Origin: a virus | Strand: one strand, 5' to 3' | IMG/VR virus record: IMGVR_UViG_3300034104_001094 | Coordinates: 1-32,619 of that record | DNA length: 32,619 bases | Shown here: piece by piece, positions 1,996 to 26,058 of the stretch | How positions within the stretch are numbered: position 1 is the stretch's first letter | Layout: each line of letters opens with the position of its first letter | The notes under the pieces: model-generated | What the model saw: the letters and a program-made list of their open reading frames with translations, nothing else | What the model was told of the DNA's origin: nothing | The model's database searches: none | Made by a program: the position numbers and the translations under genes

Positions 1996-4020
1996 ATGGC
2001 AACAATTAAAGATTTTGTCGTAAAACAAGGTATTTCAGCCCAGACTACAATCGTAGTTAATGGAGTTAACGTTTTAGCTAACGACTATGCTACTCATTTA
2101 AGCGCTAGCGCAAATGACTACAACACTTATACCACTCTTGTGGGATTTATTAACACAGTTCAAGGTAACGTTGGAGCTGGAGCTAGTGGGTATGAAGCTA
2201 ACGACTATGCTACACTACTTGCAGCATATAGCAATGACGGAGCAACACTAGCTTCAGCACGTAGCAACGACTACGCAACATTCTTAGCTGCAAGTGCTAA
2301 CGACTATAACAGCTACACCACTCTGCAAGGTGAATATCGTTCAAATGACTACGCAACTTATCTAAACGCACAATCTAACGACGGAGCTACTCTAGCTAGC
2401 GCCCGTGCTAACGACTATAGCACCTACACAACACTGCAAGGCGAGTTTGCTGCTAATGACTATGCTACTTATTTAAACGCACAATCAAACGACGGAGTTA
2501 CTTTAGGCTCAGCACGCGCGAACGACTATAACACTTATACAACGCTACAAGGTGAGTATCGTGCAAATGACTATGCAACATATCTTGCGGCACTATCTAA
2601 CGACGGCGCAACTCTTGCTTCAGCGAGTGCAAACGATTATAACACCTATACTACTCTACAAGGCGAGTATCGTGCAAATGACTATGCAACTTATTTAGCT
2701 GCACTAAGTAATGACGGAGCTACTCTTGGTACAGCTCGTGCTAATGACTACGCTACTTATACTGCTGCTCTTGCAAACGACTTTAACAGCTATACTACTA
2801 TTGTAGGTTTAATCAATACTGTACAAGATAACGTAACTAGCGGTGGAGACGCCTCTAACACGTTCGTTAACGCTAACGACTGGACCACTTATAGCACTCT
2901 TGTAAATGAGTATCAAGCAAATGACTATGCTACTTATACAGCTTTAGTTTCTGAATATAAGGCTAACGACTATGCTACTTGGAACGGCCTAAACGGTGCT
3001 ATTAACATCAAAGCTAATTCTAGCGTTAATATTATTGCTGGAGACGGATTGAATGGCGGTGGTGCTCTAACTGGTAACGTTACTTTAGATGTAGATTCTA
3101 CCGTAGTTCGTACTAGCGGAGACCAAACTATCAATGGAGTTAAGACTTTTGGTGATAGCATTGTTGTTCAAGGCAATTTAACGGTAAACGGAAACGTTAC
3201 AACTGTAGCTAGTACTAACCTAGTTGTAGACGATCGTTTTATTGAACTAGGAGCTAACACTACTGGACTACCTAGTGCGGACACTGGTATATACTTTAAC
3301 CGTGGTGCTAGCGGAAACTCTGCATTCTACTATGATCAAAGTGAAGGATGGTTCGCTCTTGTAAATAGTAATGATCCTACTACAAACGTTACTGTAAGTC
3401 CGACTAGCTACTCATGGTTAAAGTTAGATACGCTACTTGTTTCTAACACTTCAGTTGTAACTAACCTTAACGCTGACAGATTAGACAGCCAAGAAGGCAG
3501 CTACTATCTAAACTTCGGTAATGCTACAAATACAAACTTAATCACTCTAGCTTCTGTAACTGCTAATGGTGCAACAACCTCTAGCGCTATCTCAGTAGGC
3601 GGATTAAACGTAGATTCTGGCACTCTGTACGTAGATTCTACTAATAACTATGTTGGAGTTGGAACTGTAGAGCCTCGTGCTAAGCTACAAGTTTCTGATG
3701 TAGGCATTCATACTGCAACACTAACTACTACAGCTACAACTGCTAATCAAGTTGTAGACTCTTGGAGTGCTACAGTATTTAGAACTGCTAAGTATACTGT
3801 TCAAGTTCACGACACTGTAAACAACTACTATCACGCGAGCGAGATTCTAATTATTCACAACGGAACAACTCCTCACCTAACAGAGTATGCTATTGTATTT
3901 ACAGACAGCAGTCTTGCAACATTTGATGCTGATATCAGCGGTGGCAACGTAAGACTTCTAATAACACCAACTAATACAAATAATGATATTACAGTTGTAA
4001 GACATACTTTAACAGTTTAA
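1996..4020 (+). CDS. Tail fibre with long AND[YF] repeat stalk
   Basis: This 674-residue protein begins IKDFVVKQGI, an anchor also present in the next gene (KDFRVKQGI). Residues 28-333 are 22 units of an AND[YFW]/SNDG repeat of 11 or 15 residues. Next come fibre-shaft motifs AGDGLNGGGALTGNV and TVVRTSGDQTINGVKTF (about 347-386), then a beta-rich segment with FIELGANTTGLPSADTGIYF. The C-terminal ~110-residue domain is shared with the 1310 protein. Spacings of 11 and 15 residues are known non-heptad coiled-coil periods, so I infer a long helical, probably trimeric, stalk with a beta tip. RBS AAGGAAAG lies just before the ATG. No enzyme motif is visible. Confidence 0.7.
   Translation: MATIKDFVVKQGISAQTTIVVNGVNVLANDYATHLSASANDYNTYTTLVGFINTVQGNVGAGASGYEANDYATLLAAYSNDGATLASARSNDYATFLAASANDYNSYTTLQGEYRSNDYATYLNAQSNDGATLASARANDYSTYTTLQGEFAANDYATYLNAQSNDGVTLGSARANDYNTYTTLQGEYRANDYATYLAALSNDGATLASASANDYNTYTTLQGEYRANDYATYLAALSNDGATLGTARANDYATYTAALANDFNSYTTIVGLINTVQDNVTSGGDASNTFVNANDWTTYSTLVNEYQANDYATYTALVSEYKANDYATWNGLNGAINIKANSSVNIIAGDGLNGGGALTGNVTLDVDSTVVRTSGDQTINGVKTFGDSIVVQGNLTVNGNVTTVASTNLVVDDRFIELGANTTGLPSADTGIYFNRGASGNSAFYYDQSEGWFALVNSNDPTTNVTVSPTSYSWLKLDTLLVSNTSVVTNLNADRLDSQEGSYYLNFGNATNTNLITLASVTANGATTSSAISVGGLNVDSGTLYVDSTNNYVGVGTVEPRAKLQVSDVGIHTATLTTTATTANQVVDSWSATVFRTAKYTVQVHDTVNNYYHASEILIIHNGTTPHLTEYAIVFTDSSLATFDADISGGNVRLLITPTNTNNDITVVRHTLTV
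2077..2994 (+). repeat. AND[YF] repeat array in the 1996-4020 fibre gene
   Basis: This array encodes 22 in-frame units beginning AND[YFW], SNDY or SNDG, mostly 11 residues long, with 15-residue forms ending in QGEYR or similar. Codons vary while residues are kept, so selection acts on the protein. Longer linkers (VGFINTVQGNV, VGLINTVQDNV) interrupt it near 2150 and 2800. Confidence 0.85.
2341..2673 (+). repeat. Three consecutive 111-bp (37-residue) higher-order units
   Basis: Units start at 2341, 2452 and 2563, and each is exactly 111 bp. Each encodes an 11 + 11 + 15 residue set of the form [AS]NDYATYL..., SNDG.TL.SA., ANDY.TYTTLQGE... A fourth, altered unit begins at 2674. There are no indels between units, which suggests duplication of the whole 37-residue block. 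Confidence 0.85.
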
Positions 4021-4052
4021 TACAGCAGTAGTCGTCTAGGGATAGGGAACAG

Positions 4053-7031
4053 ATGGCAGATAAAGATTTTCGAGTAAAACAAGGTATTGTAGTTGGGGGT
4101 GACGCGTTCATCTCCAACTCTATCACACACGTAAACGCTATTAGTTTTGAGACTAATGGGTTTAGTGGTGGTAAACTATCTTGGAATACTTCCGATGGCA
4201 CTCTAGATATAGAAAGTGGTTATGGGGATGTAGTACTACAAGTAGGTCAAGAAACTCAGTATATCGTTAGAAATTCTAGCAATAGTAGTATATTAAACGG
4301 TACTTCTGTATTCTGTAATGGAGTAACTGAAGGATCTGGAAGATTTAGTGTATCTCCTATGATAGGTGATGGATCTATATCTCCAGTACAGTATCTTGGA
4401 CTTGCCACTCAAAACATAGCTTCAGGTGTAAACGGTGTTGTAACTTATTTTGGTTATGTAAGAGGGTTAGATACTCGCGGTACATCTAATAGCGCTATGA
4501 GTGTTGGAGATGAAACTTGGGCTGTAGGGGACAAGCTATACGTTCATCCTACTGTAGCTGGTAAGCTTACTAAAGTAGAGCCGGAAGCGCCCAATTCTAA
4601 GATTTGTGTGGCAGTAGTCACAGCACGACATCAGAGTACTGGTGCCGTTTTTGTTCGTCCTACTATTAACTTAACTGTAGATAAACTAAGTGATGTACAA
4701 CTAAACAGTTTGGTTGACGGGCAAAGTTTAGTTTGGGTGACAGCTAACTCTCGTTTTGAAAATAAAAATGTAACTTCTACTAGTTTTTCAACTATTGCTG
4801 TAAGCGGTCAAAGCAACGTTGTTGCAGATTCTAGCAGTGATACTCTAACTTTTGCTGCAGGCAGTGGTATACAAATTTCTACTGATCCTAGCACTGACAC
4901 AGTTACTATCACTAATACGGGTGGTAGTAGTGGTGGTGGCGGTTTAATTGCTGGTGATTATGTAGTTCGCGCTAATAAAAATGGTTCTGCACAAACAGTT
5001 ACCTCTGGTGCTGATGCAGTTGTTACTCTAGTAGATGATTTTGATCCACAAAATTGGTTTGCCTCAAATAAATTCCAACCTACTGTTGCTGGATACTATA
5101 GTATCAATGCTCAAGTTTGGTGGGATGCGGGTGCTGTAACTAATAATCAAAACAACGTACAGATTAGAAAAAATGGAAGTATTCAGTTAGCTATTAATCA
5201 AGACCAGATTATGACTGGTTCAGGATATGCGCAGGCACTATCTACTATAGCATATTTTAATGGTAGCACAGATTATGTAGAATTAACTGCCTTTACTGGA
5301 AATACCACATCACAAAATATTAATGGAGCAGCAGGTGGAACATATTTTACTGCTGCACTTTATGCCTATGGCGATGCGTCTAATGCTTGGGTAAATGCTA
5401 ATACTTATAATACGCTGTTAACCGCTCGTGCTAATGATTATAACAGCTTTACAACACTAACTGCTAATACTTACAATACGCTATTAGCTGCACAAGCAAA
5501 CGATTTTAATAGTTTTACTACCTTAACTGCTAATACGTACAACACGCTGTTAGCTGCTCAAAGCAATGATGGTGCCACTCTACTAACAGCACGTGCTAAC
5601 GACTTCTCTACCTTCACTACTTTAACTGCTAACACATACAACACGTTGCTAGCCGCACAAAGCAATGATGGAGTAACACTAGCATCAGCCCGAGCTAATG
5701 ACTTCTCTACTTTTACAACGCTAACAGCTAATATATATAATACTTATGTATCTCTTAGTGCTAATTCAGGGGCAGGTGCTAACACTTCAATTTACTTAGG
5801 AAATACCCTAATTGCTAATTCTGCACTAATATTCCAAACTAGCAACGGTCTTTCTATTACTGGTAACACTACTTCTAAGGTTATAAGCTTTGCTATTAAC
5901 ATGAGCAATGTAACCTCACAGGAAATAACTGCTAACGGAGCTTCTAATGTTTTCACACTAGCTAAAGCAGTATCTAATGCTAACATGATATTGGTTAGCT
6001 ATAACGGATTGCTTCAAAAACCAAGTACATATTCAGCCTCTGGAACTACTCTTACACTATCTAACACAACACCTATAGAATCAGGATCAGACATTGAAGT
6101 GCGATACTTTGACTTCTTCGATCTTCCAGGAGCTAGTGCTGGCGGTGGTGGGGGTACTAGTTTCCAAGGAAGTGTGAGCGGTTATACTTCTGGTGGGGGC
6201 AGCCCAACATTCAACACTGTAGATAAATTCCCATTCTCAAGTAATGGTAATGCTAGCGACGTAGGTGATTTAACGGTGACAAGAAGATCTTCTAGCGGGC
6301 AAAGTTCTTCTGTAAGTGGTTATAATTCTGGAGGTGTAAACTCAGGATATTATAATACAATAGATAAATTCCCTTTTGCTGCTAATGCCAATGCAACAGA
6401 CGTCGGTGATCTATTAACTGTTGGTGGGTATTTATCTGGGCACTCTAGTACTACTAGTGGGTATATTGCAGGGGGTCAACCGGGTTTAACTAATGTAATT
6501 CAGAAATTTTCTTTTACAACAGACGGTAATGCAAGTGATGTAGGCGACTTAACTCAAGGAAGATACGGATTGACAGGCCAGTCCAGTACTGTTTCAGGAT
6601 ATGCTTCTGCAGGTAGAACTTCTGTTTATGTTACTACTGTGGATAAGTTTCCATTTGCTTCTAATGCTAATGCTACGGACGTAGGAGACGTAACAGCTGC
6701 TAGAGGTTTTGTTTCTGGGCAATCTAGTGATTCTAGCGGTTACACTTCTGGTGGTTATGGAACTTCTATTCCCATTACTAACATTATAGATAAATCACCT
6801 TTTGCAAGTGATACTAATTCTACAGATGTTGGAGATTTATCGATAACTAAAGGTTATTCTGCAGGACAATCTAGCACAATTAGTGGTTATACGTCCGGAG
6901 GAATCTGGCCATCGGCTAGTCCTGCTACTCATAATATAATTGATAAGTTCCCGTTTGCCAGTGACGGTAATGCTACAGATGTAGGTGATTTAACACAAGC
7001 TAGAGCTAGAACTACAGGACAACAGGTGTAA
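4053..7031 (+). CDS. Multi-domain fibre: C1q-like, AND[YF] stalk, six kelch-like blades
   Basis: This is a 992-residue protein. Residues 1-240 hold an anchor KDFRVKQGI and a beta domain (LGLATQNIASGVNGVVTYFG, then WAVGDKLYVHP). About 297-440 looks like a C1q/TNF-type jelly roll (FQPTVAGYYSINAQVWW, IRKNGSIQLAIN, DYVELTAF). Residues 449-569 are eleven 11-residue AND/ANT units. About 623-692 is the recurrent small domain NVFTLAK...SGTTLTLSN...IEVRYFDFF. Residues 709-992 are six ~47-residue blades of type SGYTSGG...IDKFPFAS..NATDVGDL...GQSS. Six such repeats suggest one six-bladed beta-propeller, a plausible receptor- or glycan-binding tip. The gene has a 32-bp leader with RBS AGGGA. All domains are structural, and the target is unknown. 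Confidence 0.75.
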   Translation: MADKDFRVKQGIVVGGDAFISNSITHVNAISFETNGFSGGKLSWNTSDGTLDIESGYGDVVLQVGQETQYIVRNSSNSSILNGTSVFCNGVTEGSGRFSVSPMIGDGSISPVQYLGLATQNIASGVNGVVTYFGYVRGLDTRGTSNSAMSVGDETWAVGDKLYVHPTVAGKLTKVEPEAPNSKICVAVVTARHQSTGAVFVRPTINLTVDKLSDVQLNSLVDGQSLVWVTANSRFENKNVTSTSFSTIAVSGQSNVVADSSSDTLTFAAGSGIQISTDPSTDTVTITNTGGSSGGGGLIAGDYVVRANKNGSAQTVTSGADAVVTLVDDFDPQNWFASNKFQPTVAGYYSINAQVWWDAGAVTNNQNNVQIRKNGSIQLAINQDQIMTGSGYAQALSTIAYFNGSTDYVELTAFTGNTTSQNINGAAGGTYFTAALYAYGDASNAWVNANTYNTLLTARANDYNSFTTLTANTYNTLLAAQANDFNSFTTLTANTYNTLLAAQSNDGATLLTARANDFSTFTTLTANTYNTLLAAQSNDGVTLASARANDFSTFTTLTANIYNTYVSLSANSGAGANTSIYLGNTLIANSALIFQTSNGLSITGNTTSKVISFAINMSNVTSQEITANGASNVFTLAKAVSNANMILVSYNGLLQKPSTYSASGTTLTLSNTTPIESGSDIEVRYFDFFDLPGASAGGGGGTSFQGSVSGYTSGGGSPTFNTVDKFPFSSNGNASDVGDLTVTRRSSSGQSSSVSGYNSGGVNSGYYNTIDKFPFAANANATDVGDLLTVGGYLSGHSSTTSGYIAGGQPGLTNVIQKFSFTTDGNASDVGDLTQGRYGLTGQSSTVSGYASAGRTSVYVTTVDKFPFASNANATDVGDVTAARGFVSGQSSDSSGYTSGGYGTSIPITNIIDKSPFASDTNSTDVGDLSITKGYSAGQSSTISGYTSGGIWPSASPATHNIIDKFPFASDGNATDVGDLTQARARTTGQQV
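5397..5759 (+). repeat. Eleven uninterrupted 33-bp AND/ANT units
   Basis: Eleven units of exactly 33 bp run without an indel. They alternate ANTYNTLLAAQ-type with AND[YF].[ST]FTTLT-type and SNDG-type units. The same two unit types recur in the next two genes. Confidence 0.9.
6177..7031 (+). repeat. Six kelch-like blade repeats, set 1
   Basis: Six repeats of about 46-49 residues each follow SGY.SGG...[NT].[IV]DKFPFA...NATDVGDLT..R...GQSS. The last ends GQQV at the stop codon. Confidence 0.9.
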
Positions 7032-7032
7032 A
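7017..7032 (+). repeat. 16-nt junction repeat (copy 1)
   Basis: ggacaacaggtgtaaa is identical at 8766-8781. It encodes the shared C-terminal GQQV plus the stop. Its CAGGTG is placed to serve as a Shine-Dalgarno site for the gene that starts directly after it. Confidence 0.8.
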
Positions 7033-7034
7033 CA

Positions 7035-8780
7035 ATGGTAGATATTCGCATTAGATTAAATCAAATAAACGCAGATTCAATAGCAACTTCAGCTTTTGCT
7101 TCTAAAACAGAACTACAAGCAAATACTAATGCTTTAACTGCTAATACGTATAACACACTATTAGCCGCTCAAGCAAACGATGTTGCTACCCTAAACAGTG
7201 CTCGTGCTAATGACTTCACTACGTTCACAACTCTAACTGCTAATACATACAATACGCTGCTAGCAGCTCAAGCAAACGATTGGGCTACTCTACTAACAGC
7301 TAGAGCAAATGACTTCTCCACGTTCACAACTCTAACAGCTAATACCTATAATACGCTGCTAGCAGCTCAAGCAAACGATGTTGCTACTTTAAATAGTGCT
7401 CGTGCCAATGACGGGGTAACACTAGCCTCAGCCCAAGCTAATGACGGAGTTACTCTAGCTAGCGCCCGTGCTAACGACTTTGCTACTTATACCACTCTAG
7501 CTGGTATGATTAGTAACTCTACCTCTAATACAAATATCGTGGTAGGGAATGTAAGCCTCTCTAATACCACTGTATTCATTCAAGCTGGTGATGGAGTGTT
7601 ACTAAGTTCTAACACTACATCAAAAACACTAACCATTGCCACTTCAATGAGCAATGTAACTTCACAAACTATTGCCATAACTGGAACCTCAAATTCTTTT
7701 ACATTGACAAAGTCTGCAGCTAATGCTAACATGGTACTAGTAATGTATAATGGCTTAGTACAAGATCCTTCTCGTTATAGCATATCTGGCACAACTTTAG
7801 CGCTAAATAATGTAGCACCTCTTATAGCAGGAGCTAATATTGAAGTTCGTTACTTTGACTTCTTTAGTCTGCCTGGGGTGAGTGCTGGTGGAGGTGCTTA
7901 TACCTTCCAAGGTGAAGTGAGCGGTTATACTTCTGGTGGGTACGGTGGTGGTAATGTAATAGATAAATTTTCCTTTACTACTGATGCTAATGCAACGGAC
8001 GTAGGAGATCTTTCGGTGGCCAGGCGCGCGGGCTTAGCCGGTCAGAGTTCTAGCGCGAGCGGTTATACTTCCGGAGGTATGGTAGACGCGAGTACTGCAG
8101 TATTAAATACTATAGACAAGTTTCCTTTTGCTTCTAATGCAAATGCTACAGACGTAGGCGATCTTACACAAGCAAGAAAAAAAGTTGCTGGACAAAGTTA
8201 TAGTACACACGGATATTCTTCAGGCGGGGATGCAGGCGCGACGCCGACGGTGACTAGAAGTAATGTAATAGATAAGTTTCCGTTTGCTGCAGATGGAAAC
8301 GCAACAGATGTAGGTGATTTAACTGAGACAAGATGGGGGCAATCTGGACAAAGTTCTAGTACACACGGATATACATCAGGCGGAGTTCCGCCTTCTAATG
8401 CCTCAGGTAACACTATAGATAAGTTTCCGTTTGCTTCTAATGCAAATGCTACAGACGTAGGTGATCTAGTTTCTGGTCGTCGTGATATTGCTGGACAGAG
8501 TTCTAGCACACATGGATACGTGACTTCTGGTAATAGCACAACAATACATAAGTTCTCTTTTGCGTCTGACGGTAATGCGACAGCTATAGGATCTGTACTG
8601 CCCGCTGGAGGTCAGTATGGCTCAGTAGGTCAGAGTTCTACTACTAATGGGTATAGTACTGGAGGTTCGTCTGTATATGGATCGGATATTCAAAAGTTTT
8701 CGTTTGCAGTAGACGGAAACGCTACGGACGTAGCTAGTCTAACAGTTGGTAGATATAGTGGTGCGGGACAACAGGTGTAA
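7035..8780 (+). CDS. Fibre with AND[YF] stalk and six kelch-like blades
   Basis: This 581-residue protein is a shorter relative of the 4053 protein. The N-terminus IRIRLNQINADSI...ASK resembles that of the 8784 protein rather than 4053. Residues 36-156 are eleven uninterrupted 11-residue units. The next region contains FIQAGDGVLLSSNTTSKTL. About 211-280 is the FTL...SGTTL...IEVRYFDFF domain. Residues 296-581 hold six kelch-like blades (SGY/HGY..GG...DKFPFAS) ending GQQV, as in 4053. Blade 5 (HGYVTSGNSTTIHKF) is the shortest and most diverged. Likely a fibre with a six-bladed propeller tip. The pair of propeller genes may be alternatives or may form one assembly, and the sequence does not say which. 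Confidence 0.75.
   Translation: MVDIRIRLNQINADSIATSAFASKTELQANTNALTANTYNTLLAAQANDVATLNSARANDFTTFTTLTANTYNTLLAAQANDWATLLTARANDFSTFTTLTANTYNTLLAAQANDVATLNSARANDGVTLASAQANDGVTLASARANDFATYTTLAGMISNSTSNTNIVVGNVSLSNTTVFIQAGDGVLLSSNTTSKTLTIATSMSNVTSQTIAITGTSNSFTLTKSAANANMVLVMYNGLVQDPSRYSISGTTLALNNVAPLIAGANIEVRYFDFFSLPGVSAGGGAYTFQGEVSGYTSGGYGGGNVIDKFSFTTDANATDVGDLSVARRAGLAGQSSSASGYTSGGMVDASTAVLNTIDKFPFASNANATDVGDLTQARKKVAGQSYSTHGYSSGGDAGATPTVTRSNVIDKFPFAADGNATDVGDLTETRWGQSGQSSSTHGYTSGGVPPSNASGNTIDKFPFASNANATDVGDLVSGRRDIAGQSSSTHGYVTSGNSTTIHKFSFASDGNATAIGSVLPAGGQYGSVGQSSTTNGYSTGGSSVYGSDIQKFSFAVDGNATDVASLTVGRYSGAGQQV
7140..7502 (+). repeat. Eleven uninterrupted 33-bp AND/ANT units
   Basis: This array is the same length (363 bp) as that at 5397-5759, but the order of unit types differs (ANTYNTLLAAQ, ANDVATLNSAR, ANDF..FTTLT, ANDW..., ANDGVTLASA[QR]). 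It is therefore not a simple copy of that array. Confidence 0.9.
7920..8780 (+). repeat. Six kelch-like blade repeats, set 2
   Basis: Six repeats follow the same consensus as 6177-7031, with later blades starting HGY. Count and C-terminus (GQQV) match set 1, while loop sequences and lengths differ. Confidence 0.9.
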
Positions 8781-8781
8781 A
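8766..8781 (+). repeat. 16-nt junction repeat (copy 2)
   Basis: Identical to 7017-7032. It ends the gene with GQQV-stop and lies immediately before the next ATG at 8784. Confidence 0.8.
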
Positions 8782-8783
8782 GC

Positions 8784-10817
8784 ATGGATTTATTAAGACT
8801 CAGTATACAACAAATAAACACTACTGGTATAGATAGCACTGATATTGCATCTAAGTCCTCAGTTAACACTGTGCAGGCTAATGTAACTGCAGCTAATACT
8901 TGGGTTAATGCTAACGATCATACCACTCTTCTTAGTGCTCGTTCTAACGACTGGAATACGCTACTAACAGCTCAGTCTAATGACGGAGCTACACTGTTAA
9001 CAGCGCGAGCAAACGACTTCTCCACGTTTACAACTCTTACAGCTAATACGTATAATACTCTGTTAACAGCTCGTGCAAATGACTTTGCAACTTATACCAC
9101 TTTAAACGCTAGCATCAACTCAGTTCAGTCTAATTTAACATCTGTTATTGGTGCAGCTCCTAGTACTCTTGATACTCTAGCTGAAATCGCAGCAGCACTT
9201 GAAAATGATGCAAACATAGCAGTAACTCTTGTTACAGCTATTGGCACAGTTCAGTCAAACTTAACTACTTTAACAGGTACAACAGCAGCTAATGATTATA
9301 ATAGTTATACAACACTAACGGCAAATACATATAATACGTTGTTAGCAGCTCAAGCTAACGACTTTAATAGCTTTAATACCTTAACAGCTAATATATACAA
9401 TACTCTACTTGATACGCGTGCAAACGATTTTAATAGCTTTACTACGTTAACAGCTAATATTTACAACACCTTTGCTTATCTAAATGCTAACGTAGGCGGT
9501 GGCGGCGGTGATGTAGCTAACGCTTGGGTTAACGCTAACGACTATAACAGTTATACTACATTAACTGCAAACATATATAATACATATACCAGCCTATTTG
9601 CAAATCTGGGTGTAGGCGGCGGGAACGTTACTAATACAGTTTCTATCACTCCAGTTTTTAGCGGTGCTTTAAGAACCACCAATGCTACTCAAAGCTTAGG
9701 AACTGCTTCTTGGACTACTCTCACAGGTTATGATAATGTTATTTATGATACTAATAGCTTTACATCTGTTGCGGATAGATTTACTATACCATCTGGAGTC
9801 ACTAAAGTAAAACTTGCAGGATCTGTCGCTGGAACTAGTGCCATAGGCCAACTTATTACTCGTATTCTAAAAAATGCGAATACTGCTATAAGCTACACAA
9901 CTGAAGTAGATATTGAATCCACTGGGGCCGATAATGGCATAGCGATAACACCTGTTGTATCTGTAGTAGAAGGCGATTATTTTGTACTACAAGCATTTTC
10001 TGATAACTCAAGAACTATTTCTGTAGAATTAGTTTCTTGGTTTAGTATAGAAGTAGTAGAAGGATCTGTGCTAACTGCTACAGCTAACTTGACTATCTCA
10101 TCTGCTGGAAATGCTTGGGTTAATGCTAATGACTACGCAACTCTTCTTTCAGCACGTGCAAACGACTACAACAGTTTTACAACTTTAACTGCTAACACAT
10201 ATAATACGCTTTTAGCTGCTCAAGCTAATGACTTAGCTACCCTAAATACTGCGCGTGCTAACGATTTTAATAGCTTTAATACCTTAACAGCTAATACATA
10301 TAATACACTACTTGATACGCGTGCTAATGACTACAACAGCTTTACAACTCTAACTGCTAACATATACAATACTTTTGCATATTTAAATGCTAATGTAGGC
10401 GGCGGGGGTGGAGATGTAGCTAACGCTTGGGTAAATGCTAATGACTACGCTACGTATATAACATTACAAGCAAATCTAAATTCTGTAAGTTCTAATGTTG
10501 ACAATGTCACTGCAAACTTATATAATACTTATACATCATTAGCTAATGTGTATTCTGAAAAGTTTGAAGTAAACGGAAGTACTAATGTATTTACGCTATC
10601 TCGATCTATAACTTCAGAAGAAGCACTACTAGTTTATTTAGACGGCGTACTACAACATAGTGATTCTTATGTGATATCAGGTACTACTCTTACTATTGCT
10701 AATACAACTCCTATCCCAGTAACAACTTTAGGAGTACGTTCTCTTTCAGCACTAGCTACCTCAGCTGGTGAAAGTAGTGGGGGCTCTACATACTTAAAAA
10801 CCTTCGCTTTAGGATAA
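8784..10817 (+). CDS. Fibre with three AND[YF] blocks and a C1q-like domain
   Basis: This is a 677-residue protein. The N-terminus LLRLSIQQINTTGI...ASK is related to that of the 7035 protein. It carries AND[YF] arrays at residues 43-108, 169-272 and 448-562. A fibre motif APSTLDTLAEIAAALENDAN (about 129-148) sits between the first two; similar 'aLdTL.Elaaal.nDan' segments are common in phage tail fibres. Residues about 283-432 look like a C1q/TNF-type jelly roll (LGTASWTTLTGYDNVIYDT, FTIPSGVTKVKL, ILKNANTAI). The C-terminus is the FTL...SGTTLTIAN domain. There is no kelch propeller, so the C1q-like module may be the binding part. This is inferred. Confidence 0.7.
   Translation: MDLLRLSIQQINTTGIDSTDIASKSSVNTVQANVTAANTWVNANDHTTLLSARSNDWNTLLTAQSNDGATLLTARANDFSTFTTLTANTYNTLLTARANDFATYTTLNASINSVQSNLTSVIGAAPSTLDTLAEIAAALENDANIAVTLVTAIGTVQSNLTTLTGTTAANDYNSYTTLTANTYNTLLAAQANDFNSFNTLTANIYNTLLDTRANDFNSFTTLTANIYNTFAYLNANVGGGGGDVANAWVNANDYNSYTTLTANIYNTYTSLFANLGVGGGNVTNTVSITPVFSGALRTTNATQSLGTASWTTLTGYDNVIYDTNSFTSVADRFTIPSGVTKVKLAGSVAGTSAIGQLITRILKNANTAISYTTEVDIESTGADNGIAITPVVSVVEGDYFVLQAFSDNSRTISVELVSWFSIEVVEGSVLTATANLTISSAGNAWVNANDYATLLSARANDYNSFTTLTANTYNTLLAAQANDLATLNTARANDFNSFNTLTANTYNTLLDTRANDYNSFTTLTANIYNTFAYLNANVGGGGGDVANAWVNANDYATYITLQANLNSVSSNVDNVTANLYNTYTSLANVYSEKFEVNGSTNVFTLSRSITSEEALLVYLDGVLQHSDSYVISGTTLTIANTTPIPVTTLGVRSLSALATSAGESSGGSTYLKTFALG
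8910..9107 (+). repeat. Six 33-bp AND[YF] units
   Basis: Six consecutive 33-bp units in the 8784 gene (ANDH, SNDW, SNDG, ANDF, ANTY, ANDF types), without indels. Confidence 0.85.
9288..9599 (+). repeat. AND[YF] units with Gly-rich spacer
   Basis: Six 33-bp units (9288-9485) are followed by a 48-bp spacer encoding ANVGGGGGDVANAWVN and then two more units. The spacer is repeated at 10389-10436, and a shorter Gly-rich form recurs at 12889 and 13234. Confidence 0.85.
10125..10469 (+). repeat. AND[YF] units with Gly-rich spacer, second copy
   Basis: Eight 33-bp units (10125-10388) precede the same ANVGGGGGDVANAWVN spacer and one further unit. This is a larger-scale duplication within the same gene as 9288-9599. 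Confidence 0.85.
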
Positions 10818-10821
10818 AATA

Positions 10822-11157
10822 ATGACAGAAACATTAAAAAATGCTCGATCAAATCTAACTTCTAGCTATCAAACGCTGTACACTTGTCCTCCAGGTACTA
10901 CTGCAATGATAGTTTCGTTGTTAGCTGCTAACATAGATGGCGGTAGCACTCAAGACGTAACAATACAGTGGAGAGACTCTTCAGCCTCAAATGTACCTAC
11001 TTTTATAGCCTCTACTATTGCAGTACCTGCAGACTCTACTCTAACAGTGCTAACTAAAAACGCCCCTCTAGCTCTAGAAGCTGGAGATACTATTGAAGCT
11101 AGGTCTAATACTAGTTTTACTATTCACGCTACTGCTGTTGTGGTGGAGATTGTTTAA
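10822..11157 (+). CDS. Small beta-rich structural protein (cassette A)
   Basis: This is a 111-residue protein. It begins TETLKNARSNLTSSYQTLYT, has hydrophobic strands such as TAMIVSLLAANI and VTIQWRDSS, then IAVPADSTLTVL and LALEAGDTIEA, and ends ATAVVVEIV. A closely similar plan is seen in the 119-residue product at 13313, with a shared '..L..GD.[IL]..........v...E' end. I recall small beta-sandwich proteins like this next to fibre genes in marine phages, but their role is not established. It overlaps the next gene by one base (TAATG). The likely role is a tail-fibre accessory or a small virion protein. Confidence 0.5.
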   Translation: MTETLKNARSNLTSSYQTLYTCPPGTTAMIVSLLAANIDGGSTQDVTIQWRDSSASNVPTFIASTIAVPADSTLTVLTKNAPLALEAGDTIEARSNTSFTIHATAVVVEIV

Positions 11158-12158
11158 TGCAAAATGGTGGAATTATTGGCCAATTTGTTACCGCTAACGT
11201 TAGAGCTGCTCCAGGAATGTGGAGCATTCGTGAAGCTGAGCTTAACCGTAGAACCTCATCCTGGCCAACACTAGATGTAATACCGGATCAGGTAGTATAT
11301 GCAGCTGCCGGCTCCTATACTTTTACAGTCCCTTCAGGAATAAGCGCACTTTCAATAGTAGCTGTAGGCGGTGGTGGAGCTGGCGACGACGGCAACACTG
11401 GAGATGGAGGCGGAGGAGGCGGTGGCGGTGGCGGCTTAGCCTATGCCAATAATGTAGCAGTCACTCCAGGATCTTCGGTTAGCGTAATAGTAGGTGCAGG
11501 CGGTTCTGCAGGAAATGGTAAAAATGCTCGTGCTGAAAGTGGGGGCAATACTACTGTAACTGTAGGTTCTTTCGTTATAAGTGCTGGCGGAGGTCAAGGC
11601 GGCGCTGCTTACAGTGCTAGCCCTGGAGCAGTTGGCGGGGCATATAGCTTTACTAATACTCCTGCAAATACTACTACCGGAGGTGGTAATGGTGGCGGTG
11701 GCGGAGCCGGTTTTGATGGAGGTGGCGGTGGCGGAGGTGCTGGCGGCTATGGCAGTGCTGGTGGTAATGGCTCTACTGCTAATTCAAACTATGCCTTATA
11801 CCTTACCGGCTTTAATGGTGCCAGCGGTAGTGGTGGCGGTGGTGGGGCTGCTTATACAGCTGGAACCGCTAGTAATGGTAGTGGTGCCGGAGGTACGGGT
11901 CAACTTAATACAACTGGTGGTGGTGGGGGTGGAGCTACTCTATATAGCAGTACTAATCCTGCTACTTCTGGAACTAACGGTAATGGTAGTACTTCTACAG
12001 GATCTAAGGGTGGAGATGGTGGTTTTCCTGGTGGAGGCGGCGGAGGTAGTTTTGATGGCAACTTTGGCCTAGCCTCTACTGGAGGGTCTGGCGCTGTAAG
12101 AATAATATTCCCTGGAAACTTGCGAACATTCCCCTCAACTAGGGTGGCAGACGAATGA
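11157..12158 (+). CDS. Glycine-rich adhesin with GGIIG anchor (cassette A)
   Basis: This is a 333-residue protein. The N-terminus NGGIIGQFV...RAAPGMWSIREAE is an anchor shared with the 13669 protein (NGGVIG...RRAPGVWSAEE). It is followed by a strand motif GSYTFTVPSGISALSIVAVG and about 220 residues of extremely Gly-rich sequence. The C-terminus GSGAVRIIFPGN closes the domain. 'tftvPsG....v..vGgGG' followed by polyglycine is typical of glycine-rich phage adhesins. Some of these, such as gp38-type adhesins, use polyglycine-II helices. Low-complexity GGN codons create a long spurious frame on the same strand. It is likely a receptor-binding or fibre-tip protein. Confidence 0.65.
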   Translation: MQNGGIIGQFVTANVRAAPGMWSIREAELNRRTSSWPTLDVIPDQVVYAAAGSYTFTVPSGISALSIVAVGGGGAGDDGNTGDGGGGGGGGGGLAYANNVAVTPGSSVSVIVGAGGSAGNGKNARAESGGNTTVTVGSFVISAGGGQGGAAYSASPGAVGGAYSFTNTPANTTTGGGNGGGGGAGFDGGGGGGGAGGYGSAGGNGSTANSNYALYLTGFNGASGSGGGGGAAYTAGTASNGSGAGGTGQLNTTGGGGGGATLYSSTNPATSGTNGNGSTSTGSKGGDGGFPGGGGGGSFDGNFGLASTGGSGAVRIIFPGNLRTFPSTRVADE

Positions 12159-12565
12159 TTAGCTTAGTAATTAAAATAGATGATAGCGATAATACGATTT
12201 CAGATCCAATGCTATTGGATAATTTAAAGATGTTATACCCTAAAGCTAGTATTAATGCCTTACCTACCGGTTATGCAAAGTTTATACCTACTCCAACTCC
12301 AAATTTAGGAGTGTATGAAAAGCTAGACGGATATACCTACGTAAAAGTAGACGACTATTATACTCAACAGTATCATGTAGTACAAATGACTGATGAAGAA
12401 AAAAATATAAAACAAGATGAGGTAAAAGCTTCTTGGGCGCAAGTTGGGTTTCCGTCTTGGAGCTTTAATGAGCAACTTTGCTGCTACGAACCTCCAGTAA
12501 TAAATCCGGCGCAAAAGCGCTATGAATGGCATGAAGAAAGCCAAGCTTGGGTAGAAATTGAATGA
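12155..12565 (+). CDS. Fibre-assembly-chaperone-like protein (cassette A)
   Basis: This is a 136-residue protein with an N-terminal beta part (ISLVIKIDDSDN). The C-terminal half holds IKQDEVKASWAQVGFPSWSF and then EPPVINPAQKRYEWHEESQAW. A 'pSW.....w.pP...p....Y.W.e....W' ending is familiar from small proteins encoded beside phage fibre genes, several of which are fibre-assembly factors. The gene lies between two fibre genes and overlaps both by ATGA, and the equivalent slot in cassette B (16115) also holds a ~137-residue assembly-like protein. No enzyme motif is seen. It might instead be a minor virion protein. Confidence 0.4.
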   Translation: MISLVIKIDDSDNTISDPMLLDNLKMLYPKASINALPTGYAKFIPTPTPNLGVYEKLDGYTYVKVDDYYTQQYHVVQMTDEEKNIKQDEVKASWAQVGFPSWSFNEQLCCYEPPVINPAQKRYEWHEESQAWVEIE

Positions 12566-13311
12566 GTATATATAGAATAAACCCTGAACTATTAAAGTCA
12601 AATGGTGCTTCTAATGGTGACGTATTAACTTACGTAGCTTCTAATGCTAAAATAGAGTGGAAAGCTGCTTCAGGCGGTACTGGTGATGAGTCTAATCTTT
12701 ATAATACTTACAATACACTAACAGCTAATACCTATAATACGCTGTTAGCAGCTCAATCTAATGATGGGGCCACCCTAGCTAGTGCGTTTGCTAATGATCA
12801 TACAACCCTACTTACAGCACGAGCTAACGACTTTAACAGCTTTACCACGCTTACAGCTAACATATACAACACGTTTGCGTATCTAAACGCAAACGTAGGC
12901 GGTGGAGGTGGTGGAGGCACTATAGCTAACTTAGTTAGCGACCAGTATACGATCTCAACTACTAACACGTTCACACTAACTAAAACTGTTAGTGACGCTA
13001 ACAACATTATAGTATCTTTAGACGGTATTGTACAAAATCCGAATGATGATTACATAGTGTCTGGTACTACTCTAATATTTAATAACACTGCTCCATTACC
13101 TGCAGGTCGTGAAGTAGAAGTTAGACATATAGTAGGCGGCGGGGATGCTGCTAACACATGGCTAAATGCTAACGATTATAATAGCTATACAACGCTAACT
13201 GCAAATATTTATAATACTTTTGCCTATCTAAACGCCAATGTAGGTGGCGGAGGTGGTGGCGGAATAACCACAGGTAAAGCCATTGCTATGGCTATGATTT
13301 TCGGAGGATAA
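12562..13311 (+). CDS. Short fibre with GA-GDVL anchor and AND[YF] stalk (cassette A)
   Basis: This is a 249-residue protein. Its anchor IYRINPELLKSNGASNGDVL is shared with the 16544 and 20256 products. Five 11-residue units follow (55-109), then a Gly run, then the FTL...DGIVQ...SGTTLIFNN domain (about 130-192). Two more AND[YF] units lead into a second Gly run and the C-terminus TTGKAIAMAMIFGG. The 'GKaIAMAm.FGG' end is a sequence I recall at the C-terminus of marine phage tail proteins. The 3' codons contain GGAGG, which serves as Shine-Dalgarno for the next gene. It is probably a compact fibre or stalk unit. Confidence 0.65.
   Translation: MSIYRINPELLKSNGASNGDVLTYVASNAKIEWKAASGGTGDESNLYNTYNTLTANTYNTLLAAQSNDGATLASAFANDHTTLLTARANDFNSFTTLTANIYNTFAYLNANVGGGGGGGTIANLVSDQYTISTTNTFTLTKTVSDANNIIVSLDGIVQNPNDDYIVSGTTLIFNNTAPLPAGREVEVRHIVGGGDAANTWLNANDYNSYTTLTANIYNTFAYLNANVGGGGGGGITTGKAIAMAMIFGG
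12724..12888 (+). repeat. Five 33-bp AND/ANT units
   Basis: Five uninterrupted units (ANTY, SNDG, ANDH, ANDF, ANIY) are followed by a Gly-rich spacer. Two more units occur at 13168-13233 in the same gene. Confidence 0.85.
13303..13307 (+). promoter_or_regulatory. Strong Shine-Dalgarno GGAGG inside the preceding gene
   Basis: GGAGG lies 5 bases before the ATG at 13313, within the last codons (Gly-Gly) of the upstream fibre. It marks the junction between cassettes A and B and supports the start at 13313. Confidence 0.7.
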
Positions 13312-13312
13312 A

Positions 13313-13672
13313 ATGGCAAACCCAAATATAGTAAACGTAACGACAATATACGGAGAGACTGCCGTACTATCTGCTACCACTGCTAATGCTAACGTTGTAG
13401 CAAATCCTGCATCTAGTAGTTCTGTGTATAAAATTAATTCACTATTTGCGTCTAACTTAAATGTAGCTTCTGATATGGATTTAACTGTGGATATAATTAG
13501 ATCTGGAACTAACTATTCTCTAGCTAGAAATGTTACTATCCCGTTCAACGCTACAATAGTTGTAATTGCAAAAGACTCAACTCTATACTTACAAGAAGGA
13601 GACGCACTAAGTTGTGCAGCTTCATCTAACTCAAACGTGCAAGTAGTGTGTTCATATGAGGTGATAGCATGA
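13313..13672 (+). CDS. Small beta-rich structural protein (cassette B)
   Basis: This is a 119-residue protein. Its segments are VVANPASSSSVYKINSLFAS, DLTVDIIRSG, NVTIPFNATIVVIAKDSTLY and LQEGDALSCAASSN. It has the same strand order and 'L..GD.l' feature as the 111-residue product at 10822, and it holds the same position at the head of a four-gene cassette. It is therefore probably a diverged paralogue of that gene. A strong GGAGG site lies 5 bases upstream. Its stop overlaps the next ATG. Function is unknown; a small virion or fibre-associated protein is most likely. Confidence 0.5.
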   Translation: MANPNIVNVTTIYGETAVLSATTANANVVANPASSSSVYKINSLFASNLNVASDMDLTVDIIRSGTNYSLARNVTIPFNATIVVIAKDSTLYLQEGDALSCAASSNSNVQVVCSYEVIA

Positions 13673-16110
13673 GATTAAATGGTGGTGTTATTGGTAAAAG
13701 CAATGAACCTACTAATAGACGTGCTCCAGGAGTTTGGAGTGCTGAAGAACAACGTACCCGTCAACTATACGGTAAATTTCCTAGATATTATGAAGGCTGG
13801 GATCTAACTTATTTAGTTAATAGTTCTCCTAACTTTGTAAGATCTTTTAGTCCTGGTGAAGCAGCTCCCACAGGCGTTACGTTTACTCCAAGCGGTAACA
13901 CAATGTTTATAGCTGGTTTTACCGGAGATGATATTAAACAGTACTCAGTAGCTACTCCGTGGAATATTTCAACGGCCACACTTACTAGTAACTATGCTGG
14001 AGGATCTAGCTCTACTTTAAATCCTACTGGTGTAGCTTTTCGCTCGGATGGTAGATCTATGTTTGTATCTACTTCAGAAGCTTTAGGCATAACTCAGCAT
14101 AGTCCTAATATAGCCTGGGCTTTTAGCACAGCTTCAACTGCTTACGGAAAATATTTTACAACACAGTCTAGTTTAGTCCCTAGTGGTATTTTTTTTAAAC
14201 CAGATGGGCTAGCTATGTTTATGTCTTGCTCAAGCGGAAGCACTCAAGTAATACAACAATATTCGTTAAGTCAAGCTTGGGATATACAGTCTGCTACTTA
14301 TATCAAACTATTTTCCGTTGCTTCTCAAGAGGGTTCACTTCAAGATGTGGCTTTTAGTAGTGACGGAACTAGTATGTTTATTATTGGAAATAGTAGTGAT
14401 AGAGTACATCAATATAGTTTAAGTACGGCTTGGGATGTTGGTACAGCTAGTTACGGTGGTACTAGTTTCTCTTTAGCCTCAGTAGAAACAGATTCTTCAG
14501 GATTAGCTTTTAGCTCTGACGGTCTTTATATGTTTATAGTAGGTTATGCGTCTGATACAGTGCGCAGATATGCTTTAGGTTCTTCGTTTAATATATCTAG
14601 TGCTTCTGCTTCCGGAACCTTCTTACTTAGCGCTCAAGAAACCAGTCCGCAAGGCATAGACTTTAGTTCAGATGGCACAATAATGTATATAGTGGGTTCT
14701 AGTGGAAATGATATAAATCAATACTCTCTTTCTACTGCTTGGAATATTTCTACAGCATCGTATGTAGGTACATCAAGTGCTTTATCTCCAAGCGTGCTTA
14801 GTATTAGATTCAAACCAGACGGTAAAAGAGCTTTTGTAGTTGGTTCTGGCGGTGGATCCGTTAGAGTCGCTGAGGTAGCCTTTACTACTGCTGGACAAGT
14901 CTCTACTATGCAAAATGGCAGCTTACCTTCTAGTATAATACCTAGATCAGAAGATGTAGTATTTAGTAGTGATGGCACTAATATGTATGTTGTAGAGAAT
15001 GCACTTCCTATTATTAGGCAATATAGCTTGGATTATCCATGGGATTTTTACTCAGCAAATTATATTGCTAACCTTTCTGTAGCTTCTAATGATACACAGC
15101 CTAAAGGTTTAAGATTTAGCAATGATGGTACTACTATGTTAGTGATCGGTACTCTAGGTGATAACGTATTACAGTATTCCTTAAGTAATGCATGGAGTGT
15201 GTCTTCTGCTACCTATGTGCAGAACTTTTATGTTAACCATCTAGAAGCTGTTCCTCAAGGTATTGATCTATCACCTGATGGTTCTAATTTATACTTGACA
15301 GGAGACTCTGTTGATAGTGTATTTCAAATTTCACTAGGTACTCCTAATAGTGTAAGATCTCCAGCAGATGATAGTATAAGCTACTCTGTAGCCGGAGAAG
15401 AAAACGCCCCTAATGGGTTAGCATTTAAAACAGATGGCACACTAATGTACGTAGCCGGAACTTCCGGAGATGATGTTAACCAGTATATGTTGAGCATTCC
15501 TTGGAATGTGTCAACTGCAAGCTATGTTGCAAACGTGTCTGTAGCTGATAGGGAAGGCACGTGCTCTGCAGTAGTATTTAAACCCGACGGGACTCGTATG
15601 TTTATACTAGGAGGCACCACTGATAGAGTACAAGAATACGCACTATCTGCTCCTTGGGATATCACAACTGCTACATATACTTCTAACGTTTCTGTAGCTG
15701 CCCAGGAAACTAGCCCTAATGGATTAGCTTTTAAACCAGATGGTACTAAAATGTATGTAGCCGGAGCCGCCGGAGATGATGTTAATGAGTATACTCTATC
15801 CATTCCTTGGAATGTAACAACTGCTAGCTTTGTACAAATATTCTCGGTTGCAGCACAAGATATATCACCAGAAGATGTAGTTTTTAATCCAGACGGAACT
15901 CGTATGTTTATACTAGGATCTACTAATGACCGCATATACCAATATAATCTATCTACTCCTTGGAACATATCTACTGCAACTTTTGATAGGAGTTTATATA
16001 TTGCTCATTTAGACGTAACTCCTACAGGCTTAACTTTTAAAGATGATGGTACTATATTATATCTACTTGGAAATAGTAGTGATAGAGTACATCAAATTAA
16101 TTTAGGATGA
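13669..16110 (+). CDS. GGVIG-anchored YVTN-like propeller adhesin (cassette B)
   Basis: This is an 813-residue protein. It carries the anchor NGGVIG...RRAPGVWSAEE, followed by about 15 repeats of roughly 50 residues. Each has a core such as FKPDGTKMYVAG..GDDVNEY and a link such as LSIPWNVSTASYV. I count 15 SDG/PDG-type cores from residue ~80 to the end. YVTN/PD40-like beta-propeller blades look like this. Fifteen repeats would make about two propellers (for example 7 + 8), with the most diverged stretch after the seventh core. The last repeat ends at the C-terminus. It shares its anchor with the glycine-rich adhesin at 11157, so the tip seems to have been swapped. The likely role is receptor binding. 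Confidence 0.7.
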   Translation: MRLNGGVIGKSNEPTNRRAPGVWSAEEQRTRQLYGKFPRYYEGWDLTYLVNSSPNFVRSFSPGEAAPTGVTFTPSGNTMFIAGFTGDDIKQYSVATPWNISTATLTSNYAGGSSSTLNPTGVAFRSDGRSMFVSTSEALGITQHSPNIAWAFSTASTAYGKYFTTQSSLVPSGIFFKPDGLAMFMSCSSGSTQVIQQYSLSQAWDIQSATYIKLFSVASQEGSLQDVAFSSDGTSMFIIGNSSDRVHQYSLSTAWDVGTASYGGTSFSLASVETDSSGLAFSSDGLYMFIVGYASDTVRRYALGSSFNISSASASGTFLLSAQETSPQGIDFSSDGTIMYIVGSSGNDINQYSLSTAWNISTASYVGTSSALSPSVLSIRFKPDGKRAFVVGSGGGSVRVAEVAFTTAGQVSTMQNGSLPSSIIPRSEDVVFSSDGTNMYVVENALPIIRQYSLDYPWDFYSANYIANLSVASNDTQPKGLRFSNDGTTMLVIGTLGDNVLQYSLSNAWSVSSATYVQNFYVNHLEAVPQGIDLSPDGSNLYLTGDSVDSVFQISLGTPNSVRSPADDSISYSVAGEENAPNGLAFKTDGTLMYVAGTSGDDVNQYMLSIPWNVSTASYVANVSVADREGTCSAVVFKPDGTRMFILGGTTDRVQEYALSAPWDITTATYTSNVSVAAQETSPNGLAFKPDGTKMYVAGAAGDDVNEYTLSIPWNVTTASFVQIFSVAAQDISPEDVVFNPDGTRMFILGSTNDRIYQYNLSTPWNISTATFDRSLYIAHLDVTPTGLTFKDDGTILYLLGNSSDRVHQINLG

Positions 16111-19500: not shown

Positions 19501-20254
19501 CAATGCTAACTCAGTTTCTGTAGCTAAGAATGCTTATTTAAATGCAGGCCCTGCAATGGATGATATAATTTTTAAGCCTGATGGAACTAAATTATTTGTG
19601 GCTGAATCTGGAACTACTATTTTAGAGTATGATTTGCTAACTCCTTGGGATTTAACTAGTATATCATTGCAAACAGCGTTAAACGTACCAAGACCTGGCG
19701 GAGCAGCTGATAGTATAAAGTTATCTTCAGATGGATACTATTTATATGTTCTTAGTGCTTCGGACGATAAAGTTTATCAATATAAACTAGCTAAACCTTG
19801 GACGGTATTCACTAGTGTACTAATCAACGAATTTTCAGTTGCTACTCAAGAAACTGCTCCGACAGCACTGGCTTTTAGTGACGACGGCGCTTACATGTAT
19901 GTAATGGGTACTTCAGGTGATGATATAAATCAATACACCCTTTCCACTCCGTGGAATATTTCAACCGCAACTTTTACCCGTACACAGTCTATTTCTGCTC
20001 AAGATACATCTCCTACAAATTTAACTTTTAAACCTGACGGAAGTAGGCTATATGTTAGAGGCGTTACTAATAACAGAGTGTCTGAGTACGCACTAAGCAC
20101 TCCTTGGAATGTATCTTCTCTTACATTTACAAGACAACTTCAACTACCTAGCTCATGGAGTGTAGGCGGTATAGCTTTAAATTATAATGGAACTAGACTT
20201 TATGTTGGCGATTCTACTTATGGATTTATTCGCGAATATATTATAGGAAGTTAA
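16544..20254 (+). CDS. Giant propeller adhesin with GA-DGQVL anchor (cassette B)
   Basis: This is a 1236-residue protein. Its anchor is IKRISPSFISTDGATDGQVL plus a small beta element, GVTVYANASVLPNTGISIGS (about 45-64). Residues ~86-185 look like a cadherin/Ig-type domain (SSDPEDIPLSWGYN, DDGLFAIDFFASDG). The rest is about 20 YVTN-like blades with cores such as FKPDGTRMYIIG, FSPDGRILYIG and FSDDGAYMYVMG, linked by LSTPWNISTATF-type segments. Twenty blades would suit about three seven-bladed propellers. The first and last blades are nearest the consensus and the middle ones are more diverged. It is the longest protein here and probably a large host-binding fibre. Confidence 0.7.
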   Translation: MEIKRISPSFISTDGATDGQVLAYSATSNSISFSAAGGGSGVTVYANASVLPNTGISIGSEAYVESTDSLYIWTVNNVWQQISTVNTPPSALTNYLPIYYLASNGAATTISFISSDPEDIPLSWGYNIVSGVLGNTTITNSANVFTITPSTNSVDDGLFAIDFFASDGLYSANANIQFNLSFAQGWNVSNATLIGSANVAFSTTAQETNPFGVQLSANGTTMYVVGDAGDDINQYTLSAPFNIDSPTFVAAYTFTANASANNFANPRNIQLSPDGSNVYAFGNLFELGTEPVITQFSLPTPNNLATMTTNSRNRRFSVAPQEADSTELYFRDDGTRMYIIGTAGDDVNEYQLSQAWNPNTASFTTTFLVSGKETTPGGIYFTPSGNAFYVVGTTSDAVHRYNMSTDWSVNSAVFASSFPLANQETIPTSVDFKPDGTRMYIIGQTGDDFNEYTLSTPWDITTASFVRLRTQSQATLPTSMQFSNTGANLYMTGTAYEVHNYTLSEAWNVATITYQYTWNPIYGSDSSTQGIYFNPTGEYFYILGQTGDRVIPFFLRTPWDLNSAYLPGLLVDQNRMSGSTNHFRLKPDGTKLYVTGAAHDNILEYSLSIPWDIASAAHSNTFSLASDTLTPQGIDLSEDGTEIYVIDGSRTYTYKLSTPWALSSAYRSQTLRLPSIVINDVFISPTGANVYLTQSSISAILQYTLTNPWDLDSISSNTALSLSATAGSPRAVTFNDLGTKMYIAPGSTTSYLINEYTLSTPWDVTTATYTKYYMFDQPNAASGVALISLLEFSPDGRILYIGSEETGAVEYLYAVYLTVAYDLSSIEKIVHTDYYNIDTTAASGIEFSSNGDTLYLQISGTIYPVDLSTAYDISSLKIPARPADSGGVYQVSERSDLGSPRGLAYSSNGKYAYTATSTSLYRLTLEEPYNLYSAKHPYVTRLHPYTNAADYYDISIKGNSIFTVNNTLDSILKFPVSNVDSRISFGNANSVSVAKNAYLNAGPAMDDIIFKPDGTKLFVAESGTTILEYDLLTPWDLTSISLQTALNVPRPGGAADSIKLSSDGYYLYVLSASDDKVYQYKLAKPWTVFTSVLINEFSVATQETAPTALAFSDDGAYMYVMGTSGDDINQYTLSTPWNISTATFTRTQSISAQDTSPTNLTFKPDGSRLYVRGVTNNRVSEYALSTPWNVSSLTFTRQLQLPSSWSVGGIALNYNGTRLYVGDSTYGFIREYIIGS

Positions 20255-26024: not shown

Positions 26025-26049
26025 TGTTATAACGATAAAGCTATCCAAC

Positions 26050-26053: not shown

Positions 26054-26058
26054 TTTCT

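Follow-up and report, generated by a model that had tools for sequence, protein, structure and literature searches.

The window analysed here is a complete virus record of IMG/VR (IMGVR_UViG_3300034104_001094; 32,619 bases, classed linear), which carries the genes of the small and large terminase subunits, numerous tail-fibre-like genes and the beginning of a portal gene. Five neighbouring fibre genes, all on the strand shown (+) and named here by their first position (1996, 4053, 7035, 8784 and 12562), carry tandem arrays of an 11-residue repeat, with 74 units in phase. The arrays were placed by hand, guided by the motif count. The span assigned to the repeat in the first-pass annotation, positions 2077 to 13233, is the extent of the arrays, which are not continuous within it.

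The first gene (1996-4020, 674 amino acids) contains an array (2077-2994), a BppL_N-like segment (residues 366-385; Pfam BppL_N, 6.8e-6) and a C-terminal beta domain. In this array, 11-residue units are mixed with six 15-residue units (2296-2340, 2407-2451, 2518-2562, 2629-2673, 2872-2916 and 2917-2961), whose four extra residues conform to the pattern [GNS]E[YF][RQKA], as at 2296-2340; the order 11-11-15 gives a super-period of 37 residues, or 111 bp. Gene 4053 (4053-7031, 992 amino acids; phrog_19111, function unknown, 1.1e-9 in the C-terminal part) harbours an array of 11 exact 11-residue units at 5397-5759, and gene 7035 (7035-8780, 581 amino acids; phrog_19111, 8.5e-18) another of 11 exact units at 7140-7502. 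Gene 8784 (8784-10817, 677 amino acids; phrog_23820, tail fiber protein, 4.6e-7 over residues 93-200) has arrays of 6 (8910-9107), 6 (9288-9485), 2 (9534-9599) and 8 units (10125-10388), with an exchangeable domain at 9600-10124 between the last two. The 8-unit array is followed by an array end, a glycine linker and the next cap (ANVGGGGGDVANAWVN, 10389-10436), a layout also present at 9486-9533, and by one further unit past the linker (10437-10469); the DNA copies 9354-9544 and 10257-10447 of this gene are 85% identical. The fifth gene (12562-13311, 249 amino acids; phrog_18673, tail fiber protein, 1.2e-7) carries arrays of 5 (12724-12888) and 2 units (13168-13233). Many arrays are preceded by a cap such as DVANAWVN and end with NANVGGGG.

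The loose motif [AS]N[DTI][YFGWVIHL] was found 77 times in the five genes (23, 11, 11, 24 and 8 in gene order). Three of these matches were an overlapping cap (NTFVN, NTWVN, NTWLN), leaving the 74 units in array phase, and the earlier estimate of approximately 70 units in five fibre proteins was correct. Across all 13 window proteins examined there were 84 matches; 1000 residue shuffles of these 13 proteins averaged 11.4 matches and never exceeded 23, and a chance origin of the repeat was rejected on this basis. Runs with a spacing of exactly 11 residues comprised 11 units in gene 4053, 11 in gene 7035, 6, 6, 2 and 8 in gene 8784, and 5 and 2 in gene 12562. Not one insertion or deletion was present in these runs of 11, 11, 8, 6, 6, 5 and 2 units, and the exact spacing confirms the indel-free arrays of 6, 8 and 11 units described previously. 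Tandem Repeats Finder independently reported periods of 33, 66, 99 and 111 bp. The differing codons of the first description were also observed: all 74 units were distinct at the DNA level, and 47 were distinct at the protein level. Where two units encode the same peptide (64 pairs), they differed at a mean of 5.4 of 33 bases, and no pair was free of differences. As there is no sharing of DNA between units and identical peptides differ in their bases, the repeat pattern is kept at the protein level. The repeat observation as a whole is thus confirmed and real.

The Asn at position 2, previously described as nearly invariant, was present in 74 of 74 units in the window. It was also present in all 648 units of the window and its relatives in a leave-one-out count, which demanded a match at the remaining positions and a complete unit next to it and did not require Asn at position 2; the patterns used for finding contigs mostly contained ND, and arrays wholly without Asn would escape them. 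In counts of this type, Thr or Ser occupied position 6 in 648 of 656 units, Leu, Tyr, Phe or Trp position 7 in 637 of 649, and Ala or Leu position 10 in 600 of 657. The consensus proposed initially needs a minor correction at position 3, which is Asp, Thr or Ile in the window and also Leu, Val or Ser in relatives; Ile, Leu or Val was found there in 50 of 648 units. Both Asn codons were used at position 2 (AAT 431, AAC 217). An Asn without exception would come as a surprise to a specialist.

Scans of viral contigs with three array queries returned 5, 25 and 8 loci, and a scan with an array alignment returned 51 loci. After removal of near-identical and contained proteins (118 candidates reduced to 65 and then to 59), there were 59 distinct array proteins with 765 units in approximately 50 uncultured viral contigs, the five window proteins included. 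Windows of the record itself (L006-L013) were excluded from all relative counts. The unit spacings below 20 residues in these proteins were 11 (529 times), 15 (34), 16 (2) and 18 (2), and the longest run reached up to 20 units. Three array queries had no tblastn match in 50,697 phage records, so that uncultured viruses are the only source of the repeat within this analysis. Even under low-complexity filtering, tblastn with two of the array queries matched 64 and 78 of 90 known loci, so that the empty result for phage records is not mere masking. Two scans of prokaryote genomes gave 35 and 52 pattern matches, none of which was confirmed, and a scan with the C-terminus of gene 1996 gave one locus only. 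An array match was seen in 1 of 12 further large terminase (TerL) records, most of them short, and was not used as evidence.

Over the repeat itself, no Pfam, NCBIfam, PHROG or PDB profile match was obtained beyond weak or compositional-looking ones. The weak PHROG matches (best 1.5e-4, in 4 of 19 segments) were to families of unknown function, the Pfam hits looked compositional (PSMbeta; best 3.1e-10, for L004), and the PDB profile search had a best E-value of 0.08 and gave no sequence relative. These profile and PDB searches agree with the earlier suspicion that the repeat belongs to no characterised family. No paper on this repeat was found in the open-access literature searched, within which the repeat family is apparently undescribed.

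The domains accompanying the arrays are concordant with a tail-fibre context. In the 59 array proteins, Pfam detected Peptidase_S74 in 10, BppL_N in 4, DUF4183 in 3 and Collar in 2, and many PHROG families of tail-fibre and baseplate proteins were matched, those of baseplate wedge and long tail fibre with up to 10 array-protein members each. Within the window, similarity to fibre or baseplate proteins was detected for genes 1996 (BppL_N, gp9-like fold), 8784 (phrog_23820) and 12562 (phrog_18673), and the only match for genes 4053 and 7035 was the PHROG of unknown function. A further structural gene, 26472, has no array in the window; its orthologues in loci L003, L015, L035, L042 and L043 carry 14-22 units, and S74 was present in those of L035 and L042 when scanned singly. 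A tblastn search with the domain at 9600-10124, at a loose E-value limit of 1, matched Staphylococcus phage 812/K proteins, one record of which is annotated as central spike, and many Mycobacterium and Gordonia phage records as well. In gene 8784, a tail-fibre module around APSTLDTLAEIAAALENDANIA (9108-9287) links two arrays, and this module recurs in L020, L022, L023, L030 and L034 with 84% identity. The C-terminal halves of genes 4053 (6150-7031) and 7035 (7900-8780) consist of a separate repeat of approximately 45-50 residues, matching phrog_19111, with the rough pattern SGYTSGG...IDKFPFA...GDLT...AGQSS.

Thirty-three relative proteins were split at their arrays and the pieces were compared with the window proteins. 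For 12 of the 17 assignable pairs of array-separated domains, the two sides best matched different window genes, although not all of these best hits are exchanges, because some N-terminal domains are homologous to each other. The cases at nucleotide level are clearer than this tally. Contig 3300032214_000214 (L002) matches the window over long stretches at 85-91%, and its gene-12562 orthologue contains the 175-residue domain of gene 8784, with 96% protein and 91% DNA identity. Positions 7925-8607 of this contig match 9530-10212 of the window (91%, DNA), the flanking matches end at window position 12739 and resume at 12823, and all breakpoints lie within or at arrays. In L001, the match jumps from window position 5746, in the array of gene 4053, to position 9346, in an array of gene 8784. 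With a unit length of 33 bp and an unvarying phase, recombination between the arrays of two fibre genes can leave the reading frame intact, and it might be the cause of these exchanges.

An AlphaFold2 monomer of the gene-4053 array (residues 441-577) was computed from an alignment of 19 array segments. The array was predicted as one unbroken helix (residues 3-134 of 137), with a mean predicted local distance difference test score (pLDDT) of 91.8, and of approximately 96 within the array, and the helix passes straight through the NDG units. Fold searches with this long helix gave no match. Within two successive units, the eight top-scoring covarying pairs were all at a separation of 1, 3 or 4, with 7-11 and 4-8 (separation 4) at the top and also 1-4, 4-7, 7-10 (3) and 10-3' (4); such pairs are expected for a helix, and shared ancestry also yields them. 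Of 99 array ends, 39 (38 distinct) continue into a stretch with Ile, Leu, Val or Met at positions 14 and 17, this being the selection criterion for a heptad continuation. In the 38 distinct ends, position 7 was Tyr, Trp or Phe, position 10 Leu, Val or Ile and position 21 Val, Leu or Ile in 31. The heptad continuation draws position 3 towards the core. After some arrays the heptad-like stretch reads [IL]xxVQxN[VL] (for example at 2143-2172), with an Asn at position 20, 18 residues past Asn 2, in 35 of the 38 distinct ends. The interpretation in the first-pass annotation is partly supported, its helix by the model for the gene-4053 array and by the covariation and the heptad run-ons of some array ends; no confident prediction of disorder or of a beta-solenoid was obtained, and a beta-solenoid is disfavoured for this array by the AlphaFold2 helix.

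Periods of 11/3 and 15/4 are those of hendecad and pentadecad coiled coils, which are slightly and strongly right-handed, respectively (PMC4786415). An uninterrupted 11-residue period was found here, together with an alpha-helical backbone predicted for the gene-4053 array. The 15-residue spacing occurs 34 times, and the only model containing such steps, that of gene 1996, is poor. The periodicity of 3.67 is carried more by conservation than by hydrophobicity. The conservation moment at 3.67 had a power of 0.52 (permutation p 0.06) and pointed at 130 degrees to Asn 2, Thr 6 and Ala/Leu 10, a face roughly opposite the hydrophobic side. If fully helical, at 0.148 nm per residue, the arrays would measure 18 nm in genes 4053 and 7035 and approximately 45 nm in gene 1996.

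Taken together, the arrays are probably helical, most likely as a parallel three-stranded hendecad coiled coil, and would serve as fibre stalks and exchange joints. They would form long, nearly straight alpha-helical rods, whose coiled coil in the assembled fibre would be a hendecad (11/3) one interrupted now and then by pentadecad (15/4) steps. As stalks and spacers, the rods may separate small attachment domains on the N-terminal side from distal beta domains, with a length that could be altered in whole helical steps, and the arrays may double as in-frame joints for the swapping of head domains. The trimer, the handedness and the stalk function are what we infer.

A number of observations speak against this interpretation. 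The whole-protein AlphaFold2 model of gene 1996 (8 alignment rows) had a pLDDT of 37 and left the array mostly unassigned. Some array helices were drawn (the longest at residues 229-276 and 296-323), no strand appeared before residue 370, and the model was reliable only in its last 100 residues or so (from approximately 571), so that it neither supports nor excludes a helix in that array; the PDB fold matches of the whole model were T4 gp9 (3.3e-6), a Lilla1 baseplate chain, Kp9 gp42 and tailspikes, with a baseplate chain of a Klebsiella phage among them. AlphaFold2 tends to draw long helices for repetitive sequence, and only a monomer was modelled. The S74 domain was not found by Pfam in any of the five window proteins, and 60 of the 99 array ends lack the heptad continuation. 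The hydrophobic moment at 11/3 was weak, both on the Fauchere-Pliska scale (power 0.19-0.23, permutation p 0.36-0.43) and on that of Kyte and Doolittle (0.04, p 0.82). Asn 2, the most invariant residue, lies approximately opposite the hydrophobic face on the 11/3 wheel, which a simple hydrophobic core leaves unexplained. Candidate core phases of approximately 147, 196-230 and 270-280 degrees on this wheel are not separated by the moments, the covariation or the flanking heptads.

One possible answer to the Asn problem, clearly less probable than the coiled coil as such and a sub-model of it rather than an exclusive alternative, is that the polar face is buried. Asn 2, Asp 3 and Thr 6 would then form rings close to the bundle axis that are joined by interchain hydrogen bonds or contain water or ions, and Ala/Leu 10 would supply the hydrophobic layer; such rings would resemble the asparagine layers in the stalks of trimeric autotransporters. 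Conservation is most periodic at 3.67 and is directed at this face, the Asn is present in 648 of 648 units, position 3 accepts Ile, Leu or Val in 50 of them as a core site might, and positions 3 and 10 share the register of I14, V17 and V21 in the heptads after the arrays. However, the permutation p of the conservation moment is just 0.06, the hydrophobic face points to approximately 270 degrees, Tyr 4, Leu 7 and Leu 8 of Leu-rich units (for example SNDYTTLLSAQ) would end up on the outside, and the register also fits a core through positions 3, 7 and 10 with the Asn at the flank. More specifically, and somewhat more doubtfully, the stalk may follow a principle other than that of a hydrophobic coiled coil, as a parallel homotrimer with one polar core ring of six residues per unit, made up of the invariant Asn together with the near-invariant Asp and sealed at the flanks by hydrophobic side chains. 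Such rings, again only tentatively proposed, would be hydrogen-bonded or filled with cations or water and would follow each other approximately 16 angstroms apart, up to 20 in one stalk.

If the core is hydrophobic instead, few positions are more exposed than Asn 2, which with Thr 6 and Thr/Ser 9 could form a ladder with a step of 16 angstroms that binds a ligand or undergoes enzymatic modification, 2-oxoglutarate (2OG)-Fe(II) oxygenases of phages being one candidate for the latter. Asparaginyl hydroxylation of helical repeats is a precedent, the window has three 2OG oxygenase-like genes, together with those of a sulfotransferase and a methyltransferase, after its fibre genes, and homologues lie near array genes in several contigs. 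We regard this ladder as unlikely: ligand-binding faces usually tolerate some change, and the modification idea is not general, because only 14 of the 50 records with arrays had PF13640 (none among the four longest, of 78.4, 75.9, 62.6 and 58.6 kb), PF13759 not having been searched. A beta-solenoid, a triple beta-spiral or a disordered linker would suit the Thr/Asn/Tyr-rich composition, the NDG of many units and the low confidence of the gene-1996 model in its array, but is less likely still, given the confident gene-4053 helix with its NDG units, the strand-free residues 1-333 in the model of gene 1996 and the 15 = 11 + 4 steps, which suit helices. An alpha-helical barrel of more than three helices, its lumen lined by amide side chains like that of the DNA pilot protein of phiX174, appears very improbable. 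Against it, S74, Collar and BppL_N, which are trimeric fibre domains, surround the arrays, and each phage has several different array proteins with widely differing array lengths. In its favour, the hydrophobic positions here are distributed over two helix sides, one amide never varies, and the phiX174 H tube has 11/3 helices and a lumen of mostly Asn, Gln and Arg (PMC7354561). The variable copy number of the tandem arrays between contigs could also reflect a neutral or selfish DNA repeat with no structural role. This has next to no credibility, since no two of the 74 units are alike in DNA, the same peptide is encoded by differing bases, Asn is written with either of its codons and the Asn, Thr and small or hydrophobic positions are retained; a selfish DNA repeat was rejected on the first two of these grounds.

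The large terminase of the window shows approximately 38-40% identity to its counterparts in Vibrio, Salmonella and Escherichia phages, which we take to be T5-type phages. A glycine-rich protein (11157-12158; Gly_rich_2, 2.2e-12) is encoded between the array genes, and two large beta-propeller-like proteins with SGL/Lactonase Pfam hits (13669-16110 and 16544-20254) lie inside the fibre cassette, the first having relatives in Roseobacter, Lentibacter and Synechococcus phages. The genes for a sulfotransferase, a methyltransferase and 2OG-Fe(II) oxygenases (two clear, one weak) are located at 20577-24514, between the fibre genes and the terminase, and homologues of the oxygenases and the methyltransferase are present on the array-bearing loci L020/L021, L024 and L025-L028. 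A cytidylyltransferase-like gene (25996-26475) lies just upstream of gene 26472, and homologues occupy the same place upstream of the gene-26472 orthologues in L003, L015, L035 and L043.

Compared with the hendecad and pentadecad coiled coils of PMC4786415, the arrays share the lengths of 11 and 15 residues in 4-residue steps, a predicted continuous helix and, at some array ends, transitions to heptads. They differ in their weak hydrophobic moment, the exceptionless Asn and the lack of a sequence relative in the PDB. The phiX174 H tube likewise consists of a phage protein that has hendecads and carries amide side chains on a single face; it has three hendecads and is a decameric DNA conduit (PMC7354561), whereas runs of up to 20 units in fibre genes were found here, and this fibre-gene context speaks against a decameric tube of the H type. 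Phage tail fibres with the S74 intramolecular chaperone at their end are related to the present proteins by the S74 domain in 10 of 59 array proteins, and differ from the five of the window, which have none. The stalks of trimeric autotransporter adhesins contain core layers of Asn, an [IV]xxNT layer motif and mixed periods of 7, 11 and 15. The LxxN[TD] of the present arrays resembles that motif, and both would be fibrous stalks with such mixed periods, but the context here is a phage virion, the placement of the Asn in the core is only a candidate, and no YadA-type anchor or head family was among the 18 Pfam families listed for the 59 array proteins. T4 fibritin and P22 gp26 have heptad stalks in fibres or needles and, as may be the case here, a helical rod that separates the attachment and distal parts; their period is 7, in contrast to the period of 11 with long tandem similarity in the arrays.

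A helical fibre stalk is of a known kind, and the 11-residue repeat family appears to be undescribed. The exceptionless Asn (648 of 648 units) makes a sharp puzzle of what holds such a polar helix together. If the proposed interpretation is true, the repeat would be a simple unit for the design of straight helical rods. In the phages themselves, it would be a modular ruler that sets stalk length in fixed steps and allows distal domains to be swapped in frame at the same joints, which would help to explain fibre diversification in this phage group.

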